From contig VWND01000003.1 in NCBI GenBank assembly GCA_009599575.1, positions 558,001-622,000 on the forward strand: a stretch of 64,000 nucleotides of DNA, read 5' to 3'. Of this stretch, positions 2,060 through 61,964 are shown one piece after another. The translations under genes and the position numbers were made by a program. Source of the stretch: Blumeriella jaapii (taxonomy: Eukaryota > Ascomycota > Leotiomycetes > Helotiales > Drepanopezizaceae). Position 1 is the first letter of the stretch. The number at the start of each line of letters is the position of its first letter. The notes under the pieces were generated by a model. It saw only the letters and a program-made list of their open reading frames with translations, had not been told where the DNA came from and did no database searches.

Positions 2060-4200
2060 AATTTTTTTTTTTTTTATAAAATATAATAATAATTTGTTTT
2101 TTTCGTTGTAAAACCTTACGTAATTAACGAATTCGCAGCTTAATTCGGATAAATTTTAAAAAATACTTTCGGTCGAAAGGCCAGAAAAGTCGGCTTTTAG
2201 AAATATTCGTTGCTTTTATTTTTTTACGTTTTAATCGAGCTTTATAATCGCGCTGAAAGCTTTAAAATCTGTTTTAAAATTTACGTAGCCTAAGTAAGTT
2301 TTCGTACGCGTTTAAATAATTCTCGTAATTTTTCGTCGAAATATAAATTAATTATTAAAATCAATTTCGAATACGTCGTAATCCGAATTTTTAATAGCAG
2401 CGAATCGATTAGTAAAATCGATAACGTTAATTCTTTTTGTAATTAAATCGCAATACGCCGCGTAATAACGCACGTGAAAATAGTAAAACTTGCCGTTTTT
2501 TTTAATATTAACGTTATTCGTAAAAACGAAATTAAAAAATCGGAGTTTTTCAGCGAAGAAAAGCTCGAGTAAAAACGGATTATCGTTTTTAAAAGTTTTT
2601 TTTATTTGTTTCGGCGTATTATATTTATAATCTTCCGAAAAAAGCTTGGTTTAGTTTTCGTTCGAAACGAAAGGAAAAAAGCTAACGAGTTTATTTGATT
2701 TTTATATAAAAATATCGAAGTAAAATTTCTGAATCGTTTCGTCGTCGAAAGCGAAAGTTTTAAGCAGAGTAATTTAATTTTAAGCTTTTTGTATGATTTT
2801 TTCCGCGATAATTTCGATATTTTTTTTTAAATTTTTTCGGTCGAATCGTATAATAATCGAAATTTTAAATGCTTTTATTAAAATTTAAAGTATTAGCGGT
2901 GGCGATACGACGTTTTTAAACGCAGCAAGCGTTTTTAGTATTTGTATATTTAATTTCGAAAAATTAAATTTAAAATCGTTTGAATTTTTCTTTTTCGGAA
3001 TGCCGATGTTTTTTAAATCTGATTTCGTAAAATCGTCGCGTTTTTTGTTAATTAGCTTAAAGCTTATGGCTCGGCGTCGATTTCCGGCTGTTTTTATTCG
3101 CGGTGCTTTTTTATTAGCGACGTAAATAATTTTTTTTTTCGAATAAAAAAAGTTTCGGAAATATCGGCGCGCTTTTTTACGTTTTTTATTTTTATTTTTT
3201 TCGGAATTGTTTTTATAAATATAATAAGTTTTTTATATTCGAATAAGCGGTTGTTTGCTATTACGCTTTTAATTTCGTTTTCGGATTTGTTTTCGATAAT
3301 TAAAAATAAAAATCGCCGAATTGTTTTAGCTGCTTTAAAAGTATTAATTGCTATCGCGTATGTTTTTTCGAACTAAACGAAAATAATATTAGCTTTTTCG
3401 TTTTTTTCGTTTTCGTAAATTTGAAATATCGGAATAACGTCGTTTTTTTTATTCGGTATAAAAATGCCGCATTTAGCGACGCTTAGTTTTTTGTTTTAAA
3501 AAAAAATTAAATTTAGGATTTCGCAGCCGATTAAAATTTTTTTTGGCGATTGCATAGCGTCGTCGATTAGTTTGCAAACAATTGTAAAAAAGCTTATAAA
3601 TCTGCGGGCTTTTAAATTATTAGCTTTCAGAGCTTGCGCTTTAAAAATATAAGCGTTTAATATTCAGATTCTTTTTTTAATAAAAATAATAGTTTCGAAA
3701 AAGCGAGCGAAATGCCGAAATGAAATAACATCGGTGATTTTGCTAAAAACGTATTTTTAAATATTTTTTTTTCGTTGATTTGGCAAAAAGCGCAATATTC
3801 GGTCTGTTATTTTCTTTTTGTTATTTCGAGCTTTTTTTGCTTCGGCGAAAGCTTTTAAAGCGTTATCGTAATTCAACAGAAATTTATCGTAATTAAAGTT
3901 TTTGCGAACGAATTTAATTTTAACGAAATTTTTGTAATCGAATAAAAATTCGTTAACGTTTTCAGTTATTATATCGAATTGCTTTATAAATGTTTTTACG
4001 AAAGCTGCTTATTAATTTAAAATAGCGGTATTATATATTTATTTAAATTCGAAAAAATTGCGTATAATAGTTTCGTTTTAAAGTAAATTAAAAATAAATT
4101 TGCTAGGTTTAGCAACGCTTTGTTTAAAAAACGATATAATATCGATAAGTTTGTTAATTAAAAAAGTATATTGTATTTGTTAAAAAATAATTAGAAAAAA
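2060..4200 (-). pseudogene. ORF-X of element A: unidentified ~700-codon 3' ORF downstream of pol
   Basis: This is the counterpart of the frame read through in copy B at 18850-20990. It lies on the same strand as pol, downstream of it, separated by ~400 bp of almost pure A/T. Readable blocks include CKLVDDAMQSPKK, KTIRRFLFLIIEN and AAYCDLITK. The stops are TAA/TAG at positions compatible with Gln or Trp. One stop is TAA here and TGA in B, as expected if a TGG codon was hit on different bases. A 32-bp copy of the palindromic repeat (3096-3127) lies inside it. No family is recognised; it is not gag, pol or an obvious envelope gene. Confidence 0.55.
3096..3127. repeat. Palindromic repeat copy 1 (32 bp, in ORF-X of A)
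   Basis: It starts ATTCGCGGTGCT and ends AGCGACGTAAAT. The arms are inverted repeats with the right arm decayed by one G-to-A and one deletion or loss relative to copy 19875-19907 in element B at the homologous site. Confidence 0.7.
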
Positions 4201-4620
4201 GTACGGGAATTGTAAAGTATTTGTATTTAAAAGCTACGGAAATCCGCATGCTGTTTTTTTAATAAATTATAACTGTTTAAATAAGCATCCGTTTAAAACA
4301 ACGAAAAAAGTAAATAATATAAAAAATAGCAAATAATAAAATATATAAAAAATAGTTTTCGTAAAATGTACGAGCAAAATAGATGTATCAGATATGCGGC
4401 TTAAACATGTACAAAGCTTTTATTTTAGTAAACAAAAAATACAATCAAACAAAAAAAAATATAATAAATGTTTTAAATAATATAAAAAAAGGTTTTAAAA
4501 ATAAACAGTATATATAAAACAGAATAATACAATTAAGCAAAACAAAAACAGTAAAATAATATATAATAAAAAGGAAAACAATAGGCAATAAAAATAATAG
4601 AATAATTAATAAACAATTTT
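4200..4620. other. A/T-only spacer between pol and ORF-X of A
   Basis: About 400 bp of nearly pure A and T separates the pol stop from ORF-X. The equivalent in B is about 21000-21414. The frames here consist of Phe, Ile, Tyr and Leu only and are composition artefacts. It may be an original spacer, perhaps carrying signals for expression of the downstream ORFs, driven further to A/T by RIP. Confidence 0.5.
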
Positions 4621-4772
4621 ATAAGCACCTTTTTCCTTTTCGATTATAAATAAAATCACGATTTGAACCGTGTTTTCAGTCGCCGGATTATCGATCGGTT
4701 GTTTCCAAATCTTTTTACGAGTTTTTTCTTTTTCAGAAATATAATCGCTCTGATCGGAATCGTCGTCGAAAT

Positions 4773-5038
4773 TGTGACGATTCACTCTGTTGCCACCTCT
4801 CGTGTCACCCCAGCAACTACGTATAGCTGCAAGCTCCCTGGTCTTCTGGTGGGTCTTCCTATCAATTATGGAAACTATCATATATATAAGGCTTTTTCCC
4901 CTTAGCAACCTTTGCCTTCTGCAGTTGTTGATTCTAAATGAATATTTTTGTTACAAAACCAAAGGCTCGTTTTATACTATATAAATACGGCGACCAATTG
5001 ATTGATTTCCTAGCCTTCCGATTAATTAGATCGTTATA
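4773..5038 (+). repeat. 5' LTR of G1 (266 bp)
   Basis: It starts TGTGACGATTCACTC and ends ATCGTTATA, from an ancestral ATCGTCACA that is intact in the 3' LTR. The ends therefore form a short inverted repeat TGTGACGAT/ATCGTCACA. The differences I see from the 3' LTR are transitions. Confidence 0.92.
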
Positions 5039-5389
5039 TTATTAACAACTCTTTTTCTACGCTAGCGACAGCGTAAATTATTTTTCCTTTCGAATTTCTT
5101 ACGGATTACATCAAAGTGATCGACCGGTCGTAAAAAGGCTTATTTCCGCATTTCGCGAAAAATAGCTTTTGTTTAACGATTTTCCTTTTAGCAGAGCTTT
5201 TCAGCTTTTGCTATTATATTTTAACCTTCCTCTTTCTTTCAATCAGCGAAAAAGCAATTTTTCCCAAAAGCTTTTTTTTCTGAAAAACAGTTTTTTTTCC
5301 GAGGAAAAAAAAACAAAGGAAAAGGCAAAGCGCCAATTATTTCGCTTGCCACCTTCCAGCCTAGCGCTGAAAGCGTTTAGTTAAGACTT

Positions 5390-6870
5390 TTGCAAAATCA
5401 ACTGAAAAAAGCGCAAAAGCGTAAACGACAACTTCTGAAAGCTATGCGATTGCGACAAATCTTTTAATTAAAACGTTTAATAAAATTTATCGAACGTGCT
5501 TCTGCCAGTCGCGAATCTGCTGCTTTTCCTTCTTTTTGCAACGTTTTATTTTAATTAACAGACGCTGCAAACCAACTTCCACGCTTTTCGCGAACTTTTT
5601 TTAGATTTTTTTATAACGGCCAAAACTTTAGCGCGCTTTTTGAACGCTATAGTTTTTATTTATCTGCTGACTTTCGACTAGCTCGTATAAAACGCGTTCC
5701 GAACTTTGAGTTTAAGCTAAATAATAATAAAAATTACAAAGCACGCCACTGGAAGACTAAAATTCTCGACAACCTCGAATTTTACCACGATTATTTCGCT
5801 GGCGATCGATTCCGCAAAAATTATATACTCGATCAGACCGAAAGCGTAGCAAAAAAGTTTCTGACCCCGCGTATTTTGAACCGTTCCGATCTTATATTTC
5901 CCGAAAAATTAATAAAAAAGGTCGCCGATTTTCTGGCCGATTTTTCCGACGTTTAAAAGGCCGAAGACGAGTTTAAAATGCTTGCAATAAATACGCACGA
6001 CGACTTTTAGCGATTTTATCTGCGATTTTCCATTTTCGCAGCGAACGCTTAAATACGAACTGATAAACAGCTTCGAAACGCTTTTCGCGACAAAATACCA
6101 AAGCGTTTACGAGAAAAGCTGTATTTGAAATAAGCGCGTACAACGATTTTAAAAATTAGCTTATCGCCGTCCGTTAAAAAAAACAAAATCAATTAGCTAA
6201 ACGAATTTTATACGCGAATCGCTTTTTAACCAAGTTTATTATTTATTAAAATAGTAGATTTTTAACCAAAGCGTATTACGAATCAAATCGTACGTACGAA
6301 AATCGTTTAAATGCTCCATAGGCTCCTTTTCAGCCCTTTGTTTTTTCTTTTTTTCTACGCCAGAACGCTTCCTTTGGCGTTTTTTCTTTTCGATCGGACC
6401 AACGACAACGCTCGTCTTTTATTTCATACCAAAAGGTTCGAGGCCAATTTGCACGATTTTTTACGGGCCGACCTTCGGTTCCACTCAAAAGCCTTTTCAG
6501 GCTGATAGGTGTAAACGAAGTCGAACCGGCCGAAAATTCGCCTTTCGATAATAATAATAAAAACGAAAACCTTTTTTCAAACGATTTTCAAAATGCATAT
6601 AAAAAAGTTAAAGGCTTTTCCGCCAGTCGAGGAAACGCCCAGGCCTAAGCAAAACCTTTTTTTTAAGCGTATTGCGCGATATGCGTTATTTTAACGTTCG
6701 AAAGCTTTTTGGTAGCGACTTATTAATAATCTCCGTTATATTTATTAAAAATAGCTTTTCGTACAAAATGAAAACGCTCGCCGATTTTAAAGCGAACGGT
6801 TATGCGTTAATCGATTCGGCGCTGATTAAGTTTTTTTTTTTTTTTTTAAAACCTTTGATTTAATCTTTTT
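5390..6870 (+). pseudogene. G1 gag and aspartic protease remnant
   Basis: The region after the 5' LTR reads as a broken gag. The block at about 5860-6050 corresponds to the 63-codon frame LNRSDLIFFEKLIKK... that is still open in G2. At 6672-6863 a frame of 63 codons contains ADFKANGYALID, the position of the retropepsin active site; the expected Asp-Ser-Gly-Ala is mutated to Asp-Phe-Lys-Ala, consistent with C-to-T and G-to-A changes. The protease is followed by a poorly conserved linker carrying palindromic repeat copy 2 and a long poly-T run. Confidence 0.75.
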
Positions 6871-7250
6871 CGGCTTTTTTTTTTGTAAAAAAGTATAATA
6901 AAGCTCGTGGCTATTTAATTATATATTTTACGCTTTTTAATTTTATTATTAACAATCGAATACAATCGTTTATTTTTTTTTTAATTACCAACCTCGGAAA
7001 TTATAGTGTGATTTTAGAAAAAGCTTGGCTGGCCGAATATTAAGTTTTACTAAAATGTAATAAACGCAAGCTTTATTGGCCGAAGTTTTATCCCCTTATA
7101 GCCTTTTACGCTCGTTATATTAAAATCTTTTATTTGCATCTCCGAAAGATTTAATTTCGCTATCAAAACGACGCTGTAAAACGTAATAAAAATTTTAATC
7201 AATTATAGCAAACTTACGACGCTGTGCGAAGCGCGAAAAGGTCGAATTTC

Positions 7251-7283
7251 ATTCGCGGTGCTAATTTCGATAGCGACGCTAAT
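7251..7283. repeat. Palindromic repeat copy 2 (33 bp, G1 protease-RT linker)
   Basis: It reads ATTCGCGGTGCTA, a 7-base loop ATTTCGA, then TAGCGACGCTAAT. The arms pair except for the two middle bases and one mutated position. In frame on the plus strand it encodes IRGANFDSDAN. Confidence 0.85.
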
Positions 7284-7571
7284 AAAATAATATAAAAAAT
7301 TATATTATCTTTCCAGGCTGCCGATTTTTTTTTTATTATTTTTTTTTTTTTTTTTTTTTTCTTTTCGTTAAAACAGCTTTTTTATTCTACGAAAAACAGT
7401 TATACCAAAAATCGAAAAAAAGCCTTCGCCGCGATGGCCTTTTAGCTTAATATAATCGATAGTTTAAATAAGCCATTTTTTAAATTTTTCAAACGACCAG
7501 TTCGAAAACGAATTTTTTAATTTACTGCTTATCCAATTTTCATTTGCCAAATTATTGCACACGCTTTTAAA

Positions 7572-10500
7572 TTGATTTCCAGAAAAAAAGCAATTAAAAT
7601 ATTTTTAATTTTCCTGTACGAAATCGATAAAATATTAGACGACCTTACGTATAACACTTTTTTTAAAACCCAATTTTACAGTTTTTTCGAACGTTTTAAA
7701 ACTAATAAAATATCGATTTCGACCTTTTTAATCAGCTTAGCAGAATTAACTTCGAATAAACCTTTTTTCGAATCTTTTCCTTCGAAGTACAAAAACCTCG
7801 AACACGTATTTTCTAAAGCCGCCAGTAACGAGCTAGCTTCTTACCGGCCCTACGACCACAAAATCGAGCTTATTATAAATGAAAAAAAGCTAAAATATAC
7901 TTTTTTATACAAAATATCGATTTCAAAGCTCGAAATTATCAAAACCTATTTGCAAAACAACTTTGATAAAAGTTTCATCGAATCTTCCATCGTTTTCTTC
8001 GCTGCTCCAATGCTTTTCGCTAAAAAACCCGACGGTTTATTGCGTTTTTATATCGATTATCGAGCTTTTAATAATATTATTCGTAAAGATCGCTATTTTT
8101 TCTTTTTTATCGATAAGACTTTTGTTCGTTTTTCGGAAGCGCGAATTTTTACGAAATTCGATATTCGTTAAGCTTTTTATAAAATTCGAATAGATTTCGT
8201 TAATAAAAAACTAACGACGTTTCGTACGCGTTACGGCGCTTATAAGTGCAAAATGCTACCTTTTGGCCTTATTAATAAACCCGCAATTTACTAACGCTAT
8301 ATAAACGACGTTTTTTTCGATTATTTGAACGATTTTTGTATTATATATTTGAATAACATTTTTATTTATTCGTTCGACTTTTTGAAACACGCTATATACG
8401 TTCGCAAAATGTTTTAAAAGCTCGCTAACGCTGGATTACAGGCCGATATTCGAAAGTTTGAATTTAACGTTATTCGGACCCGTTACCTAGGTTTTATTAT
8501 TTCGATTAAAAGCTTAAAGATAAATCCAAAGAAAGTTTTCGTAATCGTTTACTGAAAGCCTCCTATTATTGTAAAAAGTGTATAAAGCTTTTTTGGTTTT
8601 TGTAATTTTTACCGACGTTTTATTCGAAACTACGGTATAATTGCAAAGCTTTTGGTCCATTTAATTAAAACTAACGTTTTTTTCAATTTTATTTTTGAAT
8701 ATTAAAAGAGTTTCGACCTTTTTATACTAGCTTTTATTACTGCACCAATTTTATAATATTACAGGCAAAACCTTCCCTGCATATTAGAAATTGACGTTTC
8801 CGACGGCGTAGTAGCTTTTGTGCTTTCGCAATTTTATAGCGACGACTGGCTTTCAGTCGCCTATTTTAGTAAAACTATAGCTTTCGCAAAGCTAAACTAC
8901 GTCGTATACGATAAAAAAATGCTCGCAATCGTAAAATTTCTAAGTAATTTTCGTGCTAAATTAGCTAGTTTAGTTTATTAGATTAAAATAATTACTGATT
9001 ATAAGATTTTAAAGTATTTTATAATTTTCAAATTTTTCGCTCGATAAATACGCTGAGCCGAACTCTTCGCCGACTACAACTTTTTTATTACGTACAAATC
9101 AAATAAACATAACCTTTTGACTGACGCATTAACACGTCGTACGAGCGAATTCGACCGCCAAAACTCTTTTAAACGCATTCAGCGCCTGCAAATATTTTTT
9201 CGAACCGATTAGATCGATTATCGCTTTTTGATTAAAAAACTTCGACCGCTTACGGCCTTCGAAACAGCTGTTTTTATCGTTGAAATAGCTGATTTTTCTT
9301 TCGCACTTCGTATCGTTAACCAGCTTTTCCACGCTAATCGCATAATTAGCAGTTTGATAGCCTTCCGAAAAAAAGCTGTACGAAACGCTACGAAAAGAAA
9401 CGACGATAATAATATTCCGTTTTCGTATATATTTAAACGCGACTTGCTGTTATATTACGGCCGTTTAATAATATCAGACGTCGATTATTTTCGTTTGGCT
9501 TTTATACGAAAAGTGCACGACCAGATTTTTACCGCTTACTTCAGCGCTCGCAAAACTACGCAATTGCTTTCGGACTAATATTATTAGCGAGATATAATAG
9601 CCTTTGTAAAATAATATTATCGCAACTGCCACGCTTATCGAAAAAGTTTTATTTCAAAAGATAAGCGCTCCGATTTTCTTCAGCTTTTTTCTGTTTTTGA
9701 CCACTTTTGGAAGCATATTATAATAGATTTTTGCAATTTTAATAAAAACAAATACGGTTACGATAACGTATTCGTAATAATAAATCGCTTTTCCAAGCAG
9801 ATTATTTCGATTTCTTGCCATAAGAATATCGACGCTCGAAGCTTCGCCAAATTATATATATTCCACGTATACAAGTATTTTAACCTTTCAAAAAGTATTA
9901 TTAGCGATCGTAGCTTTTAGTATTAATTTATTTTCTGATCTGAATTACAAAATATTCGGTACGCAATTAAAGCTTTCGACAGCCGCTTATTCTAAAACCG
10001 ATAGTCAGACCGAAATTTACAACTAATATTTGCAAAAACGTTTTCGATCTTTCGTAAACTTTTATTAAAACGATTGAAACGAATTTCTTTTAATAATAGA
10101 TTTCGCTCAAATAGTTCTTTTTTATAAGAATCTAAATGGCCTTTCACTTTTTGAAATTGTATACGGTTATATTCCTTATATTAATTGAAACTGGAAGCTC
10201 GATACTTCTCTTTTTCTTAACCTTTTATATAAGCTAAACGTAAACGAAGCTTGTGCGTACGCTCGCCGCCATTACGACGCCTGGAACTTCGCCAAATCGC
10301 ATTTTTAATAAATCTACGATAAAATAAAAAAAAGTGCGAATAAATCTCGCCGCGCGAACGATTTTGACGTTGGCGACTACGTATAGCTCGATATGCGCCT
10401 ATTTCCGATCTTCCGGCCTTTTCGTAAATTCGACAATTCTATAAACGGCCTTTTTAAAATTATAGCCAAAATTTTCGACAACGCTTTTAAACTAAACCTT

Positions 10501-10914
10501 TCTAGTATTATAAACGTATATTTAGTTTTTTACGCTAGTCGATTGCGTAAAGCAGCTAACGACGCGCTTTTAGATCAGGTTAATCCAGCCTCTGAATCTA
10601 TTAATATAACTGGTAAGTTTAAATACGAAATCGAAAAATTAATCGCCTGTCGAATGCAGCGGAAAACCTTTTAGTACAAAGTTTTTTAGGTAGGCTTAAA
10701 TAAAAATCTTACGTAATACCCCGCGTCTGACTTTATATACGCTCTCCTGAAAGTGCGCGATTTTTATTTGGCGTATAAAAAGCTTCCCGGTCCTTCTGCA
10801 AAACTTGTAAACTGGCTAAAGGTATATTCCGAAGGTTTGGATTCGTACGATCATTTGGATAATAACGTACCAATGGATAAAAGCTCGAGGACGCGCTTTT
10901 TTCGGACGGGGGGG
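7572..10914 (+). pseudogene. G1 pol remnant: RT, RNase H, integrase, chromodomain
   Basis: RT begins in the frame 7572-8171 (199 codons), with FAAPMLFAKKPDG and YIDYRAFNNI of the Gypsy RT fingers. The catalytic YLDD reads YLNN at 8346-8357. RNase H follows at about 8780-9130 (readable LEIDVSDGVVAFVLSQF). The integrase zinc-binding region is at about 9470-9650 and its core, with IIIDFCNFNKNKYGYDN, at about 9715-9950. A C-terminal chromodomain is readable at about 10619-10730 (YEIEKLIACRMQ, then YKVFWVGL-like with a stop at the Trp). Such a chromodomain is typical of chromoviruses and is known in the family to bind methylated H3K9. All stops seen are TAA or TAG, as left by RIP. Confidence 0.88.
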
Positions 10915-10917
10915 TAA
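10895..10917 (+). other. Polypurine tract region of G1
   Basis: The sequence GCTTTTTTCGGAC followed by seven G and TAA lies directly before the 3' LTR. This is the expected plus-strand priming site. H1 and TRG carry closely similar tracts at the same place. Confidence 0.7.
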
Positions 10918-11183
10918 TATGACGATTTATTTTATTATTACCTTTCGTGTCATCCCAGCAACTACGTATAGCTGCAAGCTTTCTGGTCTCCTGGTGGGTC
11001 TTTCTATTAATTATGGAAACTATTATATATATAAGGCTTTTTTCTTTTAACAACCTCTGCCTTTTGCAGTTATTGATTTTAAATGAATATTTTTGTTACA
11101 GAACCAAAGGCTCGTTTTATATTATGTAAACACGGCGACCAGTTGACTGATCTCCCAGCCCTTCGACTGATTAGATCGTCACA
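10918..11183 (+). repeat. 3' LTR of G1 (266 bp)
   Basis: It starts TATGACGA (TG mutated to TA) and ends GATCGTCACA. It is followed by the GAAAT duplication. It is the same length as the 5' LTR. Confidence 0.92.
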
Positions 11184-12500: not shown

Positions 12501-12568
12501 CGTAATTATCGATCAAAAGTTTATCTTTTTTATTAATCGGCTTATTCCGATCGTTTTCGGTTAAATTT

Positions 12569-12601
12569 ATTCGCGGTGCTAGCCGAAATAATAACGCGAA
12601 T
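12569..12601. repeat. Palindromic repeat copy 3 (33 bp)
   Basis: It starts ATTCGCGGTGCTA and ends AACGCGAAT. It lies in the RNase H-integrase linker of A. On the minus strand it encodes FALLFRLAPRI, and it is one of two copies 30 bp apart. Confidence 0.85.
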
Positions 12602-12631
12602 ACTTTTTCGGCCCGAAAATTAATGTTTTTT

Positions 12632-12664
12632 ATTCGCGGTGCCAACCGAAATAACAACGCGAAT
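12632..12664. repeat. Palindromic repeat copy 4 (33 bp)
   Basis: It starts ATTCGCGGTGCCA and ends AACGCGAAT. On the minus strand it gives the same peptide FALLFRLAPRI as copy 3, from which it is separated by 30 bp. Both copies lie in a 113-codon open minus-strand frame (12346-12687). Confidence 0.85.
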
Positions 12665-12955
12665 AGTTTCGGCTTTATAAAATCCAAAGCGCAAATAACA
12701 AAGCAGCCGATTTCGTTAGCGATTTATTCGTCGATATTTTATTCGTTTTATTTAGCGAAATCAAACGGATAAAAACGTTTTCGTTTGGAAAGGTCGTTTG
12801 CCGCTATGTTAATCGTTTTTTTAATATATTTGATTTCGAAATTTATAAATCGCATCCAAGTTATTTAATTAATAACGAACGCTTTTGATAGGTTATTAAC
12901 TTTTTTATTTAATTAATCGACAAAGACTTTTGCGTCTGTTTCCAAAATGAAATAT

Positions 12956-13257
12956 TGTTGCGCTATATTTACATTCCTTTATTATCTTTCATTTCTTTTG
13001 TTCCAGATTCATTCTTTCTGTACGCTTTCAGTAGTTAGATGTTCCTGAAGCTCGGAAAGGCTCGTAGTCACGTGATAACGAGCCTTCTCGGAGATTAGTT
13101 TTTCCGAGCGATTGACTAAGCGAGCCCGAACCTTTCGTTTTCTGCGGAAAGCTCGCTAGTCAGATTTAAAATAATATAAGTAATATTTTATTACATATAA
13201 TTTATTTGTTCCAGCCTCCGGTAAAAGTTTCTACCGACTATTCGGCTATGCACGATA
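12956..13257 (+). repeat. 5' LTR of T (302 bp)
   Basis: It starts TGTTGCGCTATATTTAC and ends GCACGATA (CA mutated to TA). It contains the pair AGCTCGGAAAGGCTCG and CGAGCCTTCTCGG, a partly self-complementary stretch around a CACGTGA. The LTR is less AT-rich than T's interior. Confidence 0.9.
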
Positions 13258-13275
13258 ATTATGAGTCCCGGAGCC
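13258..13275 (+). other. Primer-binding site of T, half-tRNA type
   Basis: Directly after the LTR comes ATTATGAGTCCCGGAGCC. TTATGAG is complementary to the CUCAUAA anticodon loop expected in initiator tRNA-Met. Copia elements commonly prime from such an internal tRNA fragment rather than from the CCA end. The match beyond the loop was not checked against a tRNA. Confidence 0.55.
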
Positions 13276-13499: not shown

Positions 13500-14336
13500 T
13501 TTTTAATTAAATCAATCGATTTTTTCACAACGAAAACAATATATCGGCTTTTACGAAAAAGGAGATTTTCTTTTACGACCCAAAATCGTGAATTTTCTGA
13601 TTAAAAGCGTATAAATTTCATCGATCAAGGATTTTTTTTTTTCGATTACACCGATCCTGATTTTCTATTTCGCTTTTTTATTAATAAACGATTATAAAAA
13701 CAGTTTTTTTACTAGTTTATCGATTAAAAAAATAAAAAGCGCTAAGCAAATTACGATCGAAAATGCGCCGAATATAATGGCATAACCGAAACAAAAAAGG
13801 CCGCCGTTACGATTAATAACTTTTCCGACAGACTTCGACTAGCCAATTTGATTTTCGACGATTTGAAAAATAAAATCGATTATCTTTCGAAAAACTATTT
13901 AAAAAAGCTTAAAAAATAGCAGAAATACGTTACTGCCTATCAGAAGTTGCTCGATTAAGTTTTTTTAATTATAAAAATCAGTTTAATAAATTTTGCAATT
14001 GCTTAATCGAAAATTAACGCTATTAATAATAAAAAAGCGTACGCTATTTTCTATATTGATTTGCAAAAAAATTCGTTAATAGATAGGAATATGCGAAAGG
14101 TTAAAAATCCATATTATAAAAAAAAACAGAAATTACTTCAAGCATTCGTTTTTATTTTAAAAAAAAATATTGCTTTTGCATACTTTTCCGTAATTAGCTC
14201 CGTCAGATCTGATTACAAAAACACTTTCCGTAAAGCGTATAATAAAAGGGTGAATATTACCGAATAGATAAAAAAATAGCAGACCGCTTATAAAGCAGCT
14301 GTCGAATATAAGATTTCTGATATAAATGGCCGCTAC
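13500..14336 (+). pseudogene. T gag, first part
   Basis: A plus-strand frame with Lys/Asn-rich alpha-helical composition runs up to the TRG insertion (readable SLIDRNMRKVKNPYYKKK from about 14070). It resumes at 16383 on the other side in the same sense (ATDFLDAVAAYINL). No conserved active site is expected here; assignment as gag rests on position between the primer site and protease. Confidence 0.6.
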
Positions 14337-14498
14337 TGTAACGGCCCGGCCGTTCGGCTTTCGGCTCTTCAGTCTTCCGTTACAGTTCTGGCATAGCGCC
14401 AGGGGCAGGGGGTTCTACAGTGTATATAGTTCGCCCCGAGCTTCCTTCCTTTCAGCTCTTTGTCTGTATCTTAAGGGAAATATATGAGGTTCGTCACA
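14337..14498 (+). repeat. 5' LTR of TRG (162 bp)
   Basis: It starts TGTAACGGCCCGG and ends GAGGTTCGTCACA. It contains TATATAG upstream of CGCCCCGAGC, a possible TATA box and start region. Confidence 0.92.
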
Positions 14499-16192: not shown

Positions 16193-16215
16193 GCTTTTTT
16201 CGGAGGGGGGGGTAG
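16193..16215 (+). other. Polypurine tract of TRG
   Basis: AGCTTTTTTCGGA followed by a run of G and TAG stands immediately before the 3' LTR. It is almost the same as the tract of G1 and H1. Confidence 0.75.
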
Positions 16216-18760: not shown

Positions 18761-18849
18761 TAAAACTGTAAAGCATATTAGCGAAAAAAGCTATAAGCGC
18801 TTTTTAGGTTTTAACCAATCGAAAATAATACTTGTATATAACTATTTTT

Positions 18850-20990: not shown

Positions 20991-20999
20991 TGTAAAATA

Positions 21000-50800: not shown

Positions 50801-51110
50801 ATCAGATTAATCTAGCCCTTGAATTTATTAATATAATTGATAAACTTAAATACAAAATCGAAAAATTGATCGCCTGTCGAATGTAGCGAAAGACCTTTTA
50901 ATATAAAGTTTTTTAAATAAGCTTAAATAAAGATTTTACGTGGTACTTCGCGTCTGACTTTATATACGCTTCTCTGAAAATGCGCGATTTTTATTTGGCG
51001 TATAAAAAGCTTTCCGGTCCTTCTGCAAAACTTATAGACTGGTTGAAAGCATATTCCGAAGGTTTGGATTCGTACGATCATTTGGATAATAACGTATCAA
51101 TGGATAAAAG
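47824..51110 (+). pseudogene. G2 pol: RT, RNase H, integrase, chromodomain
   Basis: RT is open for 189 codons (47824-48393), including FAAPMLFAKKPDGLLRF and CIDYRAFNNITRKNRY. The YLDD motif reads YLNN in the frame 48475-48663. RNase H is at about 49010-49390 (DKKMLAIVRFLSNF). The integrase N-terminal region is open for 133 codons at 49411-49812, and its core DFCSFNKNKHDYNN is at about 49950. The chromodomain lies near 50840-50980. Domain order and frame match G1 throughout. Confidence 0.87.
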
Positions 51111-51144
51111 CTCGAGGGCGCGCTTTTTTCGGACGGGAGAGTAA

Positions 51145-51410
51145 TATAACGATTCATTCTGTTGCCATTTTTCGTATTATCCCAGCAACTACGTATAACT
51201 GCAAGCTTCCTGATCTTCTGATAAGTTTTTCTATTAACTGTGGAAACTATTATATATATAAGGCTTTTTTTTTTTAGCAACCTCTGCCTTCTGCAGTTGT
51301 TGATTCTAAGTGAATATTTTTGTTACAGAACCAAAGGCTCGTTTCATACCATATGAACACGGCGACCAGTTGACTGATTTCCCAGCCCTCCGACTAATTA
51401 GATCGTCACA
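51145..51410 (+). repeat. 3' LTR of G2 (266 bp)
   Basis: It starts TATAACGATTCATTC, ends GATCGTCACA, and is preceded by a mutated polypurine tract (GGACGGGAGAGTAA, 51131-51144). Confidence 0.92.
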
Positions 51411-51632: not shown

Positions 51633-51899
51633 TGTGACGATCTAATTAATCGGAGGGCTGGGAGATCAGTCAACTGGTCGCCGTGTTCATATGGTATGAA
51701 ACGAGCCTTTGATTCTGTAACAAAGATATTCATTTAAAATCAACAATTGCAAAAGACAGAAATTGCTAAAAAAAAAAAGCTTTATATATATAAATAATTT
51801 TTACAATTGATAAAGAAACCCATCAGAAAACCAAAAAGCTTGCAGCTATACGTAGTTGCTAAGATGATACGAAAGATGGCAATAAAATAAATCGTTATA
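51633..51899 (-). repeat. 3' LTR of G3 (267 bp)
   Basis: On the plus strand it starts TGTGACGATCTAATTAATC and ends AAATCGTTATA. The adjacent CTATTCCTCCGTCC is the RIP-altered polypurine tract on the minus strand. Confidence 0.9.
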
Positions 51900-51929
51900 C
51901 TATTCCTCCGTCCGAAAAAAGCGCGCTTT

Positions 51930-52812
51930 CGAGCTTTTATTTATTAGTACGTCGCTATCCAAATAATCGTACGAATTTAAACCTTCGGAATACGCTTTTA
52001 GCCAATCTACAAGTTTTGCAGGAAAACCGGAGAGCTTTTTATGCGCCAAATAAAAGTCGCGCATTTTTAAAAAAGCATATATAAAATTAGACGCGAAATA
52101 CTATATAAGATTTTTATTTAAGCTTATTTAAAAAGCTTTGTATTAAAAAGTCTTCCGCTGTATTCGACAGGCGATTAATTTTTCGATTTCGTATTTAAGC
52201 TTACTAATTATATTAATAAATTTAAAAATTAAGTTAATCTGATTTGAAAGCGCGTCGTTAGCTGTTTTACGCAGTCGATTAGCGTGAAAAACTAGGTGTA
52301 CGTTTATAATACTAGAAAGGTCTAGCTTAAAAGCGTTATCGAAAATTTTGGCTATAATTTTAAAAAGGCCGTTTGTAAAATTGTCGAGCTTGCGGAAGGG
52401 CCGGAAGGTCGGAAATAAACGCATATCGAGCTATACGTAGTCGCTAACGTTAAAATCGATCGCGCGGCGAAACTTATTCGCACTTTTTTTTATTTTGTCG
52501 TAAGCTTGTTAAAAATGCGATTTGGCGAAGTTCCAAGCGTCGTAATAGCGGCGAGCGTACGCACAAGCTTCGTTTGCGTTTAGTTTGTATAAAAAATTAA
52601 GAAAAAGGGAAGTATCGAGCTTTCAGTTTCAATTAGTATAAGGAATATAACCGTATACGATTTCAAAAAGTAAAAAGCTATTTAAACTTTCGTAAAAGAA
52701 GATTATTTAAACGAAATCTATTATTAAAAGAAATTCGCTTCAATCGTTTTAATAAAAATTTACGAAAAGTCGAAAGCGTTTTTGCAAATATTAGTTGTAA
52801 ATTTCGGTCTGA
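51930..52812 (-). pseudogene. G3 integrase C-terminus and chromodomain
   Basis: A 93-codon open frame (52143-52424) reads MRLFPTFRPFRKLDN ... LKYEIEKLIACRIQRKTF. It covers the end of the integrase region and the start of the chromodomain, as in G1 at 10393-10674. It is separated from the rest of pol by H2, inserted at TCTGA. Confidence 0.8.
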
Positions 52813-53051
52813 TGTCACAGCTAGCTTGAGGGTGATCGGAATGATGTGGACCAAAAGGTACGCATGTAAATTGAAAGAAAAACACCGAGCTAGAATGCTC
52901 GGGGTCGCGAACTTTATATACAGTGGGTTGCGCTTATGGGTCACGTGACTTAGCGCGAGGCCTAGTGGCCGAGGTGGTCCGTGCCCAAATCTTAATCCGA
53001 CACCACCAGCAATTATACCACTGGCAATTATCACCGGCCAGGATCGTAACA
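52813..53051 (-). repeat. 3' LTR of H2 (239 bp)
   Basis: On the plus strand it starts TGTCACAGCTAGC and ends CAGGATCGTAACA. It is 45 bp shorter than the H1 LTR because three 15-bp units are missing. The polypurine tract follows at 53052-53075 (minus strand). Confidence 0.92.
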
Positions 53052-53199
53052 CTACCCCCCCCTTCCGAAAAACTGCGTCCTCGCAGTTGCAATCATAAGT
53101 CTATCGTTTTCCAATTCAATATAATTATCTCTGCCTTCGTTGTAAACTTGCAACCATACGAAAAGCGTTCGTAAAAAGCCTTTGGCGGTGGGATATAAT

Positions 53200-56100
53200 C
53201 GGTGAAATACTTAAAAAATATGGAAGGCTGTTATAACGTTAAAACAAAAGTATTATTCGAGATTTTCATTAGCGCCCTTTCAATTAACTTAATATTGCAA
53301 TACTTTTTTGTACAATCTCGAACCTATTATTTTTTCGATTTTCCATTCCGTTTATTCGGAAAATAATTAAATAAAAGCTGGTTCGGGGCGGCGTTGGCCA
53401 GATAAAAAATTGCTAATATGCTTTCGAAGCGAATATAAATAGAAAATTAAATAAATTAACCAGTTTGCGGAAAGGTCAAGCTTTCAGCTTTTTTTTATTT
53501 TATCGACGATTTTAATTAAGCCGTATTATTTGTCCGAAAGCTTTCGGAAAAATCGGTCGAGCTTTTAATTTTTAATATTTACTAATACTTCGTCGCTTAT
53601 ATTTTAATTTATCGGTCGTTTATACAAATTAACGAAGCGTTTTATTTTGGCTTATTATTATATAATAAACGATTATGCGTATTTTACAATTTTTTTAGCT
53701 CGGAAAGCCAAATGCAAAGCTTCGTCGCGGTTAAACTTTTCGATGACCGAGCGAAAAGAACGGAAATTATTTATATTCCAAAATATACGAGCCTCGTATT
53801 TATTTAAAATTTAAAAAGAAAAAACGTTGCCGAGAAATTCGTACGATAAAGTTAATTATATAATATTTATCAAAAGTAAAAAGCGTTTTTAATTATTTTA
53901 ATAATAAAAGCAAAAAGGGCGGAAACGTTGCTTAATATATTAATTTATTACTTCGGTCTGCCTATCGATATTAAAATTGTACGCAGTAATCAATTTGATT
54001 TTGGTTTTTAATATACGGCAGAGTTTTTGCTAAAAAACCGAAACAAACTGAACTTTTCGATCCGAAATAATTAAATCCGGCATGCCGAAATAGCGCATTT
54101 AATAAACCAAAAACAAAGCTGTCAGTTTTTTCGCTATAATAGTTTTATAGCAAAGGATTAACAAAAGCTTTTTAAATAAGCGATTTATTATTACGAAAGC
54201 GAAATCGTAACTATTTTCGTTTAATAAAAGCTTCGTAAAATTTATCGTTAAATATTAATAAAGCCTGCTGGATATAAGCAAAAGCTTCAGAAAGCTCGGA
54301 ATTTTGTCGCGCCTAGCTTTTATTCGTATGCAACGACAATTCGAAACGTATTGCTGTATATCTGCTTTTATAATTTTTTAATAATATTTGCGACCGACCA
54401 AAAGCTTTATTTTTTTTATCCTAGCGTATACTACGCAAAATTATTCGTAAATATATCGGATTAAAAAAATTCGCAATTCGAAAGATTTTAAAAGCATTAT
54501 TAATCTGCTTTAGAAAAACAATTTGTTTTATCGCAATTAATAATCAAAACTATAATTGCGGGCTTACGCTCGTTGCGTTTCGAAAAAAAAAGAGTTTTTA
54601 TTGGCTTGCAGCAAATCGTTTATAATTATATAATTATATATATCGTACGCGATTACGGAAATTAGATCTGCGGGTTTTTTTATAAGCATTTTATTTTTTT
54701 CGTTTTCGCTGTCTTTTTCGGAAAAAGTGTCGTTATCGCGCTTATCGGACGCTGTTTTTACAGGCGTTAGCGTGGTTATATTTTTAACAGCTATTTTTTT
54801 TAAAATCTAAAAATTTAATTTATCGTTTAAAAACATTTGCTGCTTTCGAACTGCTCGCTGTCGCGCTTTTAATAAGAAAATGTTTTGGTTTTTGCGAAAA
54901 AAAGTATTAGCGAACGTATTAATAATTTCCGACCGATATATAATTGTAAAATAAAAGTCGGCGAAAAACTCGGCTTATCGGGCTTATCGAGCCGAAAAGT
55001 TTTTAATTATTATAAAATATTTTAAAACGCGGTGATCGGTATATATATATACGTTTTTTTAAACGCTTAACAGCTTCGGTTTGTAATTTTTGAAAAAGCG
55101 AAAAATAGCGAAAAGCTTTTTATCGTAGATCGGATAATTAAATTCGGCGTCGATTATAATTTTGAAAAAAAAACCGATCGGATAATAAAAGTTATTTTTT
55201 TACAATTGCAATAATACGCTAGCTATTATTTTATCAGAAAAGTCGGTTTCCAGGCGCGTTTGCTTATAAAAGTCGTAATAGCATAAAATAAAAGCGCTTA
55301 ACAAAATTTTGCGCAATACTTTTTATACGTTTTTCTGTTTTTTTTCGAATACGAAAAAAACGTTTTTATTTGTAAAAGCAGTAAAAAAGCGGCAAATGCG
55401 GCTGTAGCCGGCTATAAAGCGTTTGTAAAAATTGCAAAAGCTTAAAAAGCTTTGCACGCTTCGTATATTCGCTGCATATTACTAATTTTTAATAATAGCG
55501 ATTTTTTCCGGATTTATTTTAATATTTTGAATACTAATAACGAAATCTAAAAATTTGATTTTCGTAATATTAAATTCGCATTTTTTAATATTAGTTTTTA
55601 GGCCGTGTTTTTTTAGAATCGACAAAATCTTTTTAACGTAAATCTTATATTTTAAATTATTCGCGAAATAAATAAAAATATCGTTAAAATACGCCGAGCA
55701 GAAATTATTTAAATGCTTTATAAAAATATTATTAATAAAGCGTTGAAATATAACGGGTTTATTAGTAAGGCCGAACGAAAGAATTTTATATTTATATATA
55801 TCGTATCGGATACGGAAACTAATTAATTTTTTAAACTTTTCGGATATCCGGACTCGATTAAATATTTATTAAATATTAATTTTCGTAAATATTTTAATTT
55901 TAATAATTCGCGCCAGCATTTCGTTAATTAAAAGCAAAAAATAGAAATTTTTTTTCGTAAAATCGTTAAGCTTGCGATAATCGATATATAAGCGTATAAA
56001 GCCGTCTGACTTTTTAATAAATAAAATTAAAACGGCGAAAAAAGCATTAAAAAGTTTAATAAAACTTTTATACAAATTATCGAAAATATAGCTTTTGACT

Positions 56101-57200
56101 TTTGTAAATTGTTTATTCGTAAAACGTTTAAATAATTTTATAAAAAGCGTATTTTCCGTGGTCAGATATATTTTGTAATTTACACCGGAGCGGCGGAAAG
56201 CGAACTTATCGCTTTTTTGCTTATAAAACAGTTTTTCGAATTCCGAATATTAAATTAAAAAAAGCTTTTTCACAAAAACCACGTTGTCGTCGTATTTGAT
56301 TTGCAAAGCGTCGAAAACGGAAATATTTTTTATTGCCGCGAGCTATATGATTTTTTTAAATTCGGCGACCTTCGTACGGCGGAAACGTTTTTTATTTATA
56401 TTATATATAAAAGTAATAAACGTATAATCGCTGGATAATAGTAATTCTTTTTTTTTTGCGGCCCGCATTCGTTTTTCGTAACGTATTTGTAAAGCGTTAA
56501 ATGTAAAAGCGGAAATATAATTAATATTGTAATTAAAAATAAAAAAGGTAGTAATTGGCCCGGTTAAAAAAACCGGCTTGGTCGGTCGGTTTTAAAGCTG
56601 CTAATAAAAAAACTTTTCCATTTTATACAAACTGTTTTTAAAGTTTCGCATAAACGTAAAAGATTTATCAGTTTTCAAAGCTTAAATAAGTCTTTTTGAT
56701 CGTCGTAAAAGTGTTGGCAAAAGTATATAAAACTTTTATTACGCTGTTTCGTTTGTTTGCATTTTTTTAATATATACGATTAAATATTTTAAGCTTTTTT
56801 CGCTGATCGAAATCGACGAACAATTGCTCGTTAAAATAAAAAATAATAAATATATCGAATGGCCATTTTATTTTGTTTTTTCTTTGGCCGTACGCTTGTT
56901 TCAAATCGTAATGCTATAAAAATTTGCGATTAATAAAAACGTCGGTAAAACCCAGGTTTATAATCAAAAAAGAAAAATTTACACGACGTCGGTTAATCGT
57001 AAAAAAAAAAAAAATAGTAGAAAAAATAAATTCTTTCGGCTCGCTATTATAGCCGGTAGATATAATAAGCTTATGCAGCCGAATAAAATTTATTCCGAAA
57101 CGTTAAAAAAATTAATACGTTAAAAAAGTTTTAATCGCACCGAAAATATTAGCTTCGCTATCGATATATGCAAATATTTTAATATATAATTTATTGCGTA
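53200..57200 (-). pseudogene. H2 pol: protease to chromodomain
   Basis: On the minus strand the protease site near 57150-57185 reads DSEAN (Gly to Glu). RT is readable at 55869-56075 (FIRLYIDYRKLNDFTKKNFY) and onward to about 55500. RNase H is at about 54960-55400, integrase at about 53500-54600, and the chromodomain remnant near 53220-53350. Every domain is interrupted by TAA/TAG. It matches H1 in order and spacing. Confidence 0.82.
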
Positions 57201-57299
57201 TTAATTTTATAAAAACTAAAAACTGTCGCTTTTTTATTAAAAAGCGTTAGTTAAATTTTAAATCCTTTTACAAATCGAATCTTTTGTTATAATAAAAGT

Positions 57300-58935
57300 T
57301 TTTGCCACGGCTCAAAAGTTTTTTAATAAATCGTTTTGCTTTTCGTCGATAGCTATTTCGGCGATTTTGCGATTAAGCTTAGCGTCGAAGCAAACGTTTG
57401 CGAAATGGCCGGACTTGCCGCAATTATAATAAGCGCTAAAAAAACGCGCAGCCAAGCGGAAAAAACCGGAAATAATAAAAATAGCAGTTATACGTTTGTA
57501 AAAATCTTTACTAAAAAAAGAAAAAGCTGTGCGAGCAAAAAGGGCTGAAAAAATAAAACGTTATAAAGTTTTAAAAATACCGGAAATACGTTAAAATCCT
57601 AGTTAACAAAAGCTATAACAAAGGAAAAATAGCTTATACGACGGGCAGAAGCTATTTTTTCAGCTCGGATATTGCGTAATTTTTTATTCGCAACGGCCAA
57701 AAACTCGTTTAAAACAGTATAATTATTATTTATTTTATACTTTTCTATTCGAAAATCGTATTTAAAAATAAAAATAATTTTTTCGCATATATTTTTAAAT
57801 CAACGGTTTTTAGTAATTTTGCTAATAACTGCGTAACGAATAAATAAAAAACGAAAATTATTATAAATCTGACCGTTGTTTATATAAAATTTATTATATT
57901 GCAATTTAACAAATTAAACGCGGTTATAATTAAAAAAGCGCTGATTAAAAATACGAAAAACGTTTCGAGCCGATTAAGCTTAATTATAAAATTCGGAATT
58001 TAAATATTCTAAAATAATAGTTTTTGCCTTTTCAATAATATATTTAAAATATGCTTTGGCTTAATCTATGCTTTATATAAAATTTCTTAAGTACTTTTTA
58101 ATAAATAATTTTATATTTATTTTTTATACGTTATATTTAATTTTTTTTTAATAGTCGCTAAAAGCGTAGCGAAAATATTTAATTTTAAATAATTCGATTC
58201 GGAAAATAGCTAGGTCGAAAACGGAAAAGTAATACTCGGAAATTAATTAAAAGTCCGCCGTAAAAGCGCGCGAAGCTCGGAATAAAAAAAAAGCGTCGCG
58301 GACGATATTAGCGAAAGCTGAAAAGCGAGCGGCGGCAATAGCTTAAGCGATTATTTAAGCGATTTAAAACTGTTAGGCCGTAATAAATCTTTTAGCGTTA
58401 ATAAATATACTAGGCAGTTGTAAAAGCATTCGTCGGTTTAAAAATATTAAAATATTAGCGTCGTATAACTCGATTTTAAATTCGATAATAAAGCGAAAAA
58501 ATCCAGCAGCAAATAATTATAATTCGGTAGAAAAGTCGTGGAATAAAAACTCGCTGCCAAAATCGTCGAAAAAGCCTGAAACGAATAAAGATTCGAAAGC
58601 GGCAAAAGCAAAAGCAGAAAATGGAAATGCTGATTCGAAGCCGAATCGTACGGATTGCGTTCGTTTTCGAATGCCACGTCGATTTATAAAAAAAACATAA
58701 GATATTGTAATATTAAAAAGAAATAATTCGAATTGCAAAAGCAGATCGAATTAATAAAAAAAAAAGACTCCAGTTTTTTTTAAAAACAAAATCAGTAGAA
58801 AAAAGTTCTGATTAAAGCACCGATAAATAAACGTCGGTACGGACGGCCTGAAAAAAGTTCGAGTTGCAAAAGCAGATCGAATTTTTAACCGTGGATATAA
58901 AGCTTCCCAGCGAAGATTGTTTTAGTTTTTTTTTA
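57300..58935 (-). pseudogene. H2 gag
   Basis: Open minus-strand pieces at 58517-58738 (INRRGIRKRTQSVRFGFESA, as in H1) and 58447-58677 mark the gag start. The knuckle region lies near 57400. It is the same gene as H1 gag at 30359-31780. Confidence 0.75.
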
Positions 58936-59174
58936 TATTACAGCTAGCTTAAAAGTAATCGGAATAATATAAACCAAAAAATACGCATATAAATTAAAAG
59001 AAAAACACCGAGCTAAAATGCTCGGGGTCGCGAACTTTATATACAATGGATTGCGTTTATGGGTCACGTGACTTAGCGCGAGGCCTAATGGCCGAGGTGG
59101 TCCGTGCCCAAACCTTAATCCGACACCACCAGCAATTATACCACTGGCAACTACCACCGGCCAGGATCGTAACA
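58936..59174 (-). repeat. 5' LTR of H2 (239 bp)
   Basis: On the plus strand it starts TATTACAGCTAGC and ends CCAGGATCGTAACA. It has the same reduced repeat number as the 3' LTR, followed by TCTGA. Confidence 0.92.
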
Positions 59175-59179
59175 TCTGA

Positions 59180-61964
59180 TCGTCGGTTTTAGAATAAGCG
59201 GCTATCGAAAGCTTCAGTTGTATACCGAGTATTTTGTTTAATTCAAATCAGAAAATAAATTAATACTAAAGGCTACGATCGCTAATAATACTTTTTAAAA
59301 AACTAAAATACTTGTATACGTGGAATATATACAATTTGGCAAGGCTTCGAGCGTCGATATTTTTATAACAGAAAATCGAAATAATTTATTTAAAAAAACG
59401 ATTTATTATTACGAACACGTTATCGTAACCGTATTTGTTTTTGTTAAAGCTGCAAAAGTCTATTGTAACGTGCTTCCAAAAATGGTCAAAAACAAAAAAA
59501 AGCTGAAAAAAGCCGGAGCGCTTATTTTTTAAAATAAAACTTTTTCGACAAGCGTGGCAATTGCGATAGTATTGTTTTACGAAAGCTATTATATTTCGCC
59601 AATAATATTGGTTCGAAAGTAATTGCGTAGTTTTACGAACGTTAAAATGAACGATGGAAATCTGGTCGTGCACTTTTCGTATAAAAGCCAAACGAAAATA
59701 ATCGACGTTTAATATTATCAGACGACCGTAATATAACAGCAGATTGCGTTTAAATATATACGAAGTGTTATTATCGTCGTTTTTTTTCGTAGCGTTTCGT
59801 ACAGCTTTTTTTCGAAAAGCCATTAAACTGTTAGCTGTGCGATTAGCGTAAAAAAGTTGATTAACGATACGAAATACGAAAAAAAAATTAGTGATTTCAA
59901 CGATAAAAATAACTGTTTCGGAAACCGTAAAAAGTCGCAGTTTTTCAGTCAAAAAGCGGTGATCGATTTGATTTGCTTAGAAAAAAGTTTGCAAACGCTG
60001 AATACGTTTAAAAAAGTTTTAGCGGTCGAATTCGCTCGTACGACGTATTAATGCGTCAGCCAGAAGATTGTGTTTATTTAGTTTGTACGTAATAAAAAAG
60101 TTGTAATCGGCGAAAAGCTCGGCCCAGCGTGTTTATCGAGCGTTTAAAAATTTAAAAGTTATAAAATATTTCAAAGCTTTATAATTAATAATTATTTTAA
60201 TTTAATAAATTAAGCTAGCTAATTTAATACGAAAATTGCCTAAAGATTTCACGATTGCGAATATTTTTTTATCGTATACGACGTAGTTTAGCTTTGCGAA
60301 AGCTATAGTTTTGCTAAAGTAAGCGATTGAAAGCCAGTCGTCGCTATAGAATTGCGAAAGCACAAAAGCTATTACGCCGTCGGAAGCGTCGGTTTTTAAT
60401 ATACAAAAAAGGTTTTGCTTGTAATATTATAAAACTGATGCAATAGTAAAAGCTAATATAAAAAGGTCGAAACTTTTTTGATATTCAAAAATGAAATTGT
60501 AAAAAACGTTAGCTTTGGTCAAATAAACCAAAAGCTTTGCAATTATATCGTAGTTTCGAATAAAACGTCGGTAAAAATTACAAAAACCAAAAAAGTTTTA
60601 TATATTTTTTACAATAATAAAAAGCTTTTAGTAAGCGACCACGGAAATCTTTTCTGAGTTTATTTCTAGATTTTCAGTCGAGATAATAAAATTTAAATAA
60701 CGGGTCCGTATAATATTAAATTCAAATTTTCGAATATCGGCCTGTAATCCAGCGTTAGCGAGCTTTTAAAGCATTTTGCGAACGTATATGGCGTGTTTAA
60801 AAGGTCGGACGAATAAATAAAAATGTTATTCAGGTATGTAATACAAAAATCGTTTAAATAATCGAAAAAAACGTCGTTTATATAACGTTGATAAATTGCG
60901 GATTTATTAATAAAATTAAAAAGTAGCATTTTGCATTTATAAACGCCGTAACGCGTACGAAACGTCGTTAGTTTTTTACTAACGGAATTTATTCGAATTT
61001 TATAAAAAACTTAACGAATATCGAATTTTGTAAAAATTCGCGCTTCCGAAAAATAAATAAAAGTTTTATCGATAAAAAAAAGGGGGTAGCGATTTTTACG
61101 AATAACGTTATTAAAAGCTCGATAATCGATATAAAAACGCAATAAACCGTCGGGTTTTTTAGCGAAAAATATTAAAGCAGCGAAAAAAGCGGTGAAAAAT
61201 TCGATAAAGTTTTTGTTAAAGTTATTTTGCAAATAAGTTTTAATAATCTCGAGTTTCGAAATCGATATTTTATACAAAAAAATATATTTCAGTTTTTTTT
61301 TATTTACAATAAGCTCGATTTTATAATCGTAAGGCCGGTGAAAAGCTAGCTTATTACTGGCGGCTTTAGAAAATACGTATTCGAAGTTTTTGTATTCCGA
61401 GGAAAAAAATTCGAAAAAAAGTTTATTCGAAGTTAGTTTTACTAAGCTAATTAAAAAGGTCGAAATCGATATTTTATTAGTTTTGAAACGTTCGAAAAAA
61501 CTGTGAAATTGGATTTTAAAAAAAGTATTATACGTAAAATCGTTTAGTATTTTGTCGATTTCGTATAAAAAGATTAAAAACATTTTAATTGCTTTTTTTT
61601 TGGAAATCAGCTTAAAAGCGTATGCAATAATTTGGCAAATGGAGATTGGATAAGCAGTAGATTGAAAAATTCGTTTTCGAACTGGTCGTTTAAGAAATTT
61701 AAAAAAAAATTGCTTATTTAAATTATCGATTATATTAAGCTGAAAAGCCATCGCGGCGAAAGTCTTCCTTCGGTTTTTGGTGTAATTGTTTTTCGTAAAA
61801 CGAAAAAGCTGTTTTGACGAAAAAAAAGAAAAAAAAAAAAAAAAAATAATAAAAAAGGAATCGTCAGCCTGGAAAGGTAGTGGAGTAATTTTTTGTATTA
61901 TTCCATTAGCGTCGCTATCGAAATTAGCACCGCGAATGAAATTCGATTTTTTCGCGTTTCGCAT
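59180..61964 (-). pseudogene. G3 pol: RT, RNase H, integrase
   Basis: The frame 61011-61964 is open for 317 codons, the longest in the window. It begins in the protease-RT linker (palindromic repeat, poly-Phe run) and covers RT up to IFTKFDIR. RNase H is at about 60080-60400 and the YLDD site at about 60840 (YLNN). The integrase zinc-binding and core region is open for 188 codons (59386-59952, including CHACRKSF and DFCSFNKNKYGYDN). H2 interrupts the integrase after this. Confidence 0.87.
61905..61937. repeat. Palindromic repeat copy 11 (33 bp, G3, reversed)
   Basis: It reads ATTAGCGTCGCTA ... TAGCACCGCGAAT on the plus strand. It is homologous to copies 2 and 10. Confidence 0.85.

Follow-up and report, generated by a model that had tools for sequence, protein, structure and literature searches.

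A 35-bp imperfect palindrome, referred to here as the module, recurs within the coding sequences of two families of long terminal repeat (LTR) retrotransposons in a 64,000-nucleotide stretch of the genome of the ascomycete Blumeriella jaapii (contig VWND01000003.1, positions 558,001 to 622,000; hereafter the window). The two families, a probable Gypsy family designated A/B and a family designated G, carry it at four sites and one site, respectively. The explanation that we favour, tentatively and with slightly less than even confidence, is that the module is a passenger: a palindrome that was copied as the retroelements holding it replicated, persisted in frame in the linkers between protein domains and was amplified by its carriers, without being mobile itself. 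If this is true, tiny hairpins can pass from one retroelement to an unrelated one through reverse transcription and give rise to new linker peptides, a path from repeated DNA to protein sequence that could be tested.

An earlier, sequence-only reading of the window had located eleven copies, all of which were recovered at the same positions. Self-comparison assigned them to five sites: P1 (3096 and 19875), P2 (12569 and 22959), P3 (12632 and 23022), P4 (24967 and 42621) and G (7251, 47476 and 61905). Eight copies lie in two A/B elements, with four sites apiece, and three in G elements. A degenerate pattern allowing up to three mismatches yielded 19 strand-hits in the window, whereas 0.03 would be expected in shuffled sequence. 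The arms-only pattern with three mismatches gave 15 against 9.47, which is not above chance; it is therefore the whole unit that is exceptional.

The module had been described as having a fixed length of 33 bp, with one copy of 32 bp. The copy at 3096 does lack one base, and its right arm is decayed. The unit is better read as 35 bp, with C as its outer base. The base outside the arm was C in all matches listed by a genome search that excluded T at this position, and A or G there gave only five matches genome-wide (three were the module in its A/B-type form, two were other sequences); the outer base was therefore included in the unit. The module so defined has two 14-nt arms and a 7-nt loop. 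The arms differ at two conserved positions (R-T in one arm, T-Y in the other) in nearly all copies examined, so that the palindrome has a direction.

As identified by pattern matching, the A/B modules all lie on the plus strand of the window. Those of A/B element 1 are at 3095-3128 (P1, the short copy), 12568-12602 (P2), 12631-12665 (P3, 63 bp from P2) and 42620-42654 (P4), with P1 and P4 also identified by self-comparison; those of A/B element 2 (AB2) are at 19874-19908 (P1, also placed by frame analysis), 22958-22992 (P2), 23021-23055 (P3) and 24966-25000 (P4). The G-site modules are at 7250-7284 (plus strand; pattern match and stop analysis) in G1, at 47475-47509 (plus strand; pattern match) in G2 and at 61904-61938 (minus strand; inside a native open frame) in G3.

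Comparison of the sites has to allow for decay of the elements. In 31 G copies around the module (loci L048-L077 and window 46776-48208), C-to-T change affected CpA (0.53), CpT (0.55) and CpC (0.47) about equally and spared CpG (0.07); these copies were mostly chosen by an exact module match, and their module columns are thus uninformative on conservation. Repeat-induced point mutation in most fungi is described as CpA-preferring (PMC2621366). Because CpG-sparing decay makes the CGCG cores of the arms look frozen, the sites were compared in purine/pyrimidine code only, which is blind to this decay. Variants with ACTCGCG/CGCGAGT ends were considered as covariation and rejected: at least four places had both arms changed and others only one among the matches listed, and the variants were taken as less decayed states.

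In purine/pyrimidine code, the modules of all ten site pairs matched at 30-35 of 35 positions, and the 20-base flanks on either side at 7-16 of 20, near chance. Judged from this comparison, the module is one homologous, sharply bounded DNA unit across the five sites. These identities were computed on the window copies alone; a larger set, in which the pattern used to pick the modules already fixed much of the arm sequence, gave the same range. The proposal of a discrete palindromic unit, in frame at non-homologous places of two families and mostly in linkers, is upheld by these values. The arms matched at 26-28 of 28 positions as placed, compared to 24-26 when flipped, and the orientation relative to coding, read from two positions per arm, differs between A/B and G. 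An apparent homology between the G linker and A/B P1 (tblastn, E about 1e-6) was rejected as an effect of composition, as it disappeared under default filtering and composition correction.

Coding strand, reading frame and linker position

The A/B elements are coded on the minus strand of the window, and G1 and G2 on the plus strand, so that the module lies the opposite way round relative to coding in the two families and is read in another frame: frame 1 of the strand termed TC in A/B, and frame 0 of the strand termed GT in G. The encoded peptides are FALLFRLAPRI-like in A/B and IRGANFDSDAN (G1) or IRGVNFDSDAN (G2) in G. An in-frame position within coding sequence, as had been claimed, was thus confirmed for both families. 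A preserved frame with a common peptide, [LF]A.L...[AV][PS]R[IM], was not: this peptide is on the coding strand only in A/B and is antisense in G. Since orientation and frame differ between the families, a transferable peptide cannot explain both, and what is shared seems to be the DNA itself and not the encoded peptide.

The frame assignment was derived from stop counts, made with 50 module copies left unclassified. In A/B, stops were fewest in TC frame 1, with 0.2, 4.25 and 3.29 per 335 nt around P1, P2/P3 and P4, respectively (n = 5, 4 and 7). Near the G module, GT frames 1 and 2 carry stops common to 28-30 of 30 copies; the stops in frame 0 all vary among copies, the commonest being present in 11-22 of 30. 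In G3, a native frame of 336 codons passes through the module into a reverse transcriptase (RT)-like stretch. A frameshift hairpin in G, suggested by the raw stop counts, was rejected, as frame 1 is closed both before and after the module by stops that 28-30 of 30 copies have.

The A/B sites lie between protease and RT (P4), between RNase H and integrase (P2 and P3), and beyond the integrase, in an open reading frame (ORF) termed ORF-X (P1, about 1.7 kb past the integrase end as placed by eye). Among Pfam families, the pol domains of A/B include RT_RNaseH over the cut-off and H2C2, SH3_Tf2-1 and protease under it, with the RT and the integrase core recognised by eye; in G, the integrase H2C2 and SH3_Tf2-1 were over the cut-off and RVT_1 under it. 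No pol family was matched in 20 other translated pieces, mostly from A/B. Ty3/Gypsy retrotransposons are recognised by LTRs and a pol with protease, RT, RNase H and integrase in that order. Chromoviruses, among which the sequence-only reading had placed G, are recognised by a chromodomain near the C-terminus of the integrase. The linker positions first proposed are firmer in A/B where they depend on the RNase H, and less firm where the integrase zinc finger, SH3 and protease fall under the cut-off and the RT and integrase core were placed by eye; in G, a single open frame runs from the module into an RT-like stretch.

ORF-X is itself strongly open, both in the window (19724-20152, minus strand) and in a native 204-codon piece elsewhere in the genome (locus L097, 1256-1867). 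The ORF-X pieces tested matched no Pfam family.

Copies across the genome and loss of modules

The genome (47.4 Mb, 91 contigs) contains 1,083 exact ATTCGCG-N19-CGCGAAT places; a search with the G form, allowing up to three mismatches, gave 546. All 82 distinct copies in which both flanks were compared (in loci scanned on one strand) fall in A/B or G. Of these, 45 were obtained through the module pattern alone and were hence able to reveal another context; they come from the top of the list of 1,083, and most of them are on a single contig. The other 37, obtained by A/B flanks (18) or by the G form (19), could hardly show a new one. Pattern matches were taken from roughly the first 100 places, and of the 477-693 candidates in DNA searches the best 40 were scored, so that the counts are lower bounds. 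When a purine was required at the second base outside the module, one place was found genome-wide, in the G form; this search would catch about half of the copies in random surroundings and would miss families with pyrimidine flanks or diverged arms. No module at 19/27 or more was present in eight loci from other Gypsy elements, which by eye belong to two families.

Two copies with mixed flanks were considered as A/B-G chimeras, but in each case the flanks are better explained by an insertion nested close to the module. The exact module patterns had no match in prokaryote and viral contigs. Native pieces of 138, 336 and 201 residues had no relatives in a large protein database at E values of 0.001, 0.001 and 0.01, respectively.

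Rickettsia palindromic elements are recognised by empty homologous sites in relatives, and miniature inverted-repeat transposable elements by a target-site duplication at their ends together with an autonomous partner. Empty sites were sought in this genome using joined flanks without the module as query, with 40 matches scored for each of P4, G and P2/P3. At P4, all 40 exceeded the query by 31-33 bases, about one module; at the G site, all 40 exceeded it by 27-41 bases, a flanking T tract being variable in length. At P2/P3, both modules were present in 35 of 40 matches, one in 5 and zero in none. Element H, which splits G3, was considered as an empty-site relative of G and rejected, its protease-RT linker being too diverged by eye.

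The five single-module P2/P3 copies (loci L078-L082; compare window 22958-23055) lack one module plus spacer (63 bp), and in all five the left flank of P2 joins the right flank of P3. They are found on several transversion haplotypes, some common to double-module copies, in a comparison of 47 rows of which several are overlapping loci of one genomic copy. This fits, though not firmly, repeated loss between the P2 and P3 modules.

The sequence-only reading had named an outcome that would speak against it, namely no further family and no empty sites, together with homologous linkers. Only half of this was found: neither a further family nor an empty site was seen in what was searched, but the linkers of A/B and G look non-homologous.

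Candidate explanations and related systems

Under the passenger explanation, one homologous 35-bp unit would have come to occupy four A/B coding sites and one G site, flipped relative to coding, by copying between sites inside element genomes or between co-packaged ones. Such copying would most likely occur while the elements are reverse-transcribed, through template switching or fold-back priming. The module would have been retained, by tolerance alone, where it landed in frame in linkers, and its carriers would have multiplied it to about 1,600 copies. In its favour are the likeness of the sites in purine/pyrimidine code, the different strand and frame in the two families, the confinement of the 45 pattern-fetched copies to A/B and G, and the 63-bp losses as a sign of exchange between modules. 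The P2/P3 module also fits P4 slightly better when flipped (33/35, compared to 32/35 as placed), a difference located in the loop, such as loop inversion would give. Several results weigh against this explanation. (i) The contexts and site counts come from first or best places only. (ii) Empty sites were 0/40 at each of P4, G and P2/P3, and no donor was found, so that insertion is presumed; the P2 and P3 modules are direct repeats, and ordinary recombination may account for the 63-bp losses. (iii) The orientation is read from few positions; for four A/B pairs, flipping raises the match of the whole module by one position, on account of the loop. (iv) The mirror frame on the other strand of A/B is nearly as open (0.6, 5.0 and 4.71 stops at P1, P2/P3 and P4), and the raw stop count of G is lowest in GT frame 1 (2.58) and not in frame 0 (4.42). 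(v) All four A/B sites have the module in the same orientation and frame, though at least four of the six readings are open in each of ten copies. For four independent sites this agreement would arise by chance in about 1.6% of cases, a hint that the A/B peptide is under selection or that segments were copied in frame. The passenger explanation leaves this shared frame unexplained.

A more specific possibility, to which we give roughly a quarter of our belief, is a hairpin that parasitises retrotransposons, moving between or within their genomes only in reverse transcription, by hairpin-driven strand transfer, and surviving in frame between domains. It is somewhat less probable, and on the whole unlikely, that the module is a functional RNA hairpin kept by both families at domain junctions of the genomic RNA or mRNA, where it would slow ribosomes or serve packaging or dimerisation; if so, it would be a repeated RNA signal at polyprotein junctions. 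The position of the sites between domains and the folding of seven A/B copies (z-scores of -0.88 to -3.96) are consistent with such a role, and conserved RNA structure has been linked with protein domain junctions in HIV (PMC4439019). However, the G copies fold weakly (-1.23, -0.30 and -1.72), and pair 5-31 is broken in all three of them. Across ten copies, 90.0% of cells were paired compared to 89.4% in shuffles, although above slid partners, and the covariation score of 0.150 (0.130 in shuffles) was reached by 103 of 500 shuffles; such counts have low power, as the ten copies diverge little. The palindrome is conserved as sequence, and selection on pairing receives no support from the pair counts. 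Scans of the window with Rfam (at gathering scores) and for tRNAs found nothing.

The agreement of the four A/B sites in orientation and frame, and their places in the protease-RT and RNase H-integrase linkers and past the integrase, would suit a peptide unit, [LF]A[LS]L...[AV][PS]R[IMV], with a function in marking linkers (the protease might cleave there, for instance) that led to its duplication, the reversed G copy being accidental. This is improbable: codons outside the loop agree across the A/B sites except for C/T and G/A differences, P1 lies well beyond the integrase, and G is read on the other strand. A self-mobile element inserting in frame into genes, like Rickettsia palindromic elements, is about as improbable as the peptide unit. 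Fixed length, palindromic form, in-frame positions and differing frames relative to coding speak for it, but such an element should leave copies elsewhere; all 45 pattern-fetched copies, and all 82 in total, are in A/B or G, with no empty site among the matches scored at P4, G and P2/P3, and the resemblance first drawn to Rickettsia elements is therefore disfavoured. Strict CGCG arms, which could presumably be used in either orientation, would be expected if a DNA-binding protein of the host recognised the palindrome and the site had been retained for a role in transcription or chromatin. This is very unlikely, as the module lies inside coding sequence and not in LTRs and as CpG-sparing decay also yields CGCG invariance. 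That decay raises a last alternative, in which loss of non-CpG cytosines leaves self-complementary CG islands in AT-rich DNA and hence chance ATTCGCG...CGCGAAT words; the contrast between CpG and other contexts in the G copies and the near-chance arms-only count are in its favour. It is largely refuted and least probable of all: the likeness between sites persists in purine/pyrimidine code, where at least 31/35 has a chance of about 2e-6 for one pre-chosen pair (though the pairs were picked for likeness), and the excess of degenerate-pattern hits over shuffles is not accounted for.

Coding sequences with palindromic inserts or repeats are on record for bacteria and one archaeon, for some microbial eukaryotes and for organelles (PMC2996958, PMC10969869, PMC6649704). 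No such unit was found for LTR retrotransposons in the open-access literature searched, where most subscription papers are missing. Like Rickettsia palindromic elements and similar Wolbachia repeats, the module is palindromic DNA that lies in frame within open reading frames, where the protein tolerates it (PMC10969869, PMC2996958); unlike the former, which are about 150 bp long and occur in many unrelated genes (PMC10969869), it measures 33-35 bp and was seen in two retrotransposon families only. The palindromic amphipathic repeat coding elements (PARCELs) share dyad-symmetric coding sequence and, in some taxa, a link to mobile elements, but consist of 25-residue units that carry a protein motif and are repeated in tandem (PMC2996958), whereas the module forms single 11-codon units (with one close pair) encoding family-specific peptides. 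The coding palindromes of Nematomorpha mitochondria are likewise inverted repeats within coding sequence; they are, however, perfect repeats of up to 284 bp whose arms encode conserved regions of the genes themselves, without a shared unit (PMC6649704). In HIV, structure-prone RNA also lies near polyprotein junctions, but is not one repeated sequence (PMC4439019), and the module lacks covariation support.

Carrier elements and their nesting

The carriers were delimited by self-comparison, with A/B measuring 11.3 kb and G 6.4 kb. AB2 (17297-28616, minus strand, as assigned from coding pieces) is bounded by LTRs at 17297-17568 and 28348-28616. A/B element 1 (513-51632, minus strand) contains three insertions, namely G1, a block of about 28 kb and G2, and probably continues beyond G3. 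Its parts AB1 and AB3 look like one A/B element split by later insertions, because matching 5-bp duplications are present at the joints, including those where G nests in A/B; the window thus has two A/B elements with four modules each. G1 (4770-11183, plus strand) and G2 (44998-51410, plus strand) are nested in A/B element 1. G3 (51633-64000, minus strand) runs off the window and is split by element H at about 52813-59174.

At one further locus of the genome (L036, position 1500), the LTR of a G element starts at the edge of a P4 module, representing one G insertion at the end of the palindrome. LTR retrotransposons often target palindromes, according to the title of PMC6911290, and such targeting may bear on this insertion.

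The block of about 28 kb in A/B element 1 has end repeats (12950-13262 and 40686-40997) and a 5-bp duplication, and the end-repeat copy at 40787 contains a hairpin of its own around CACGTG. Two direct repeats of 165 bp (14334-14498 and 16213-16377), about 1.9 kb apart and 98.8% identical, are far closer to each other than other repeats of the window; between them lie two overlapping frames, of 168 and 155 codons.

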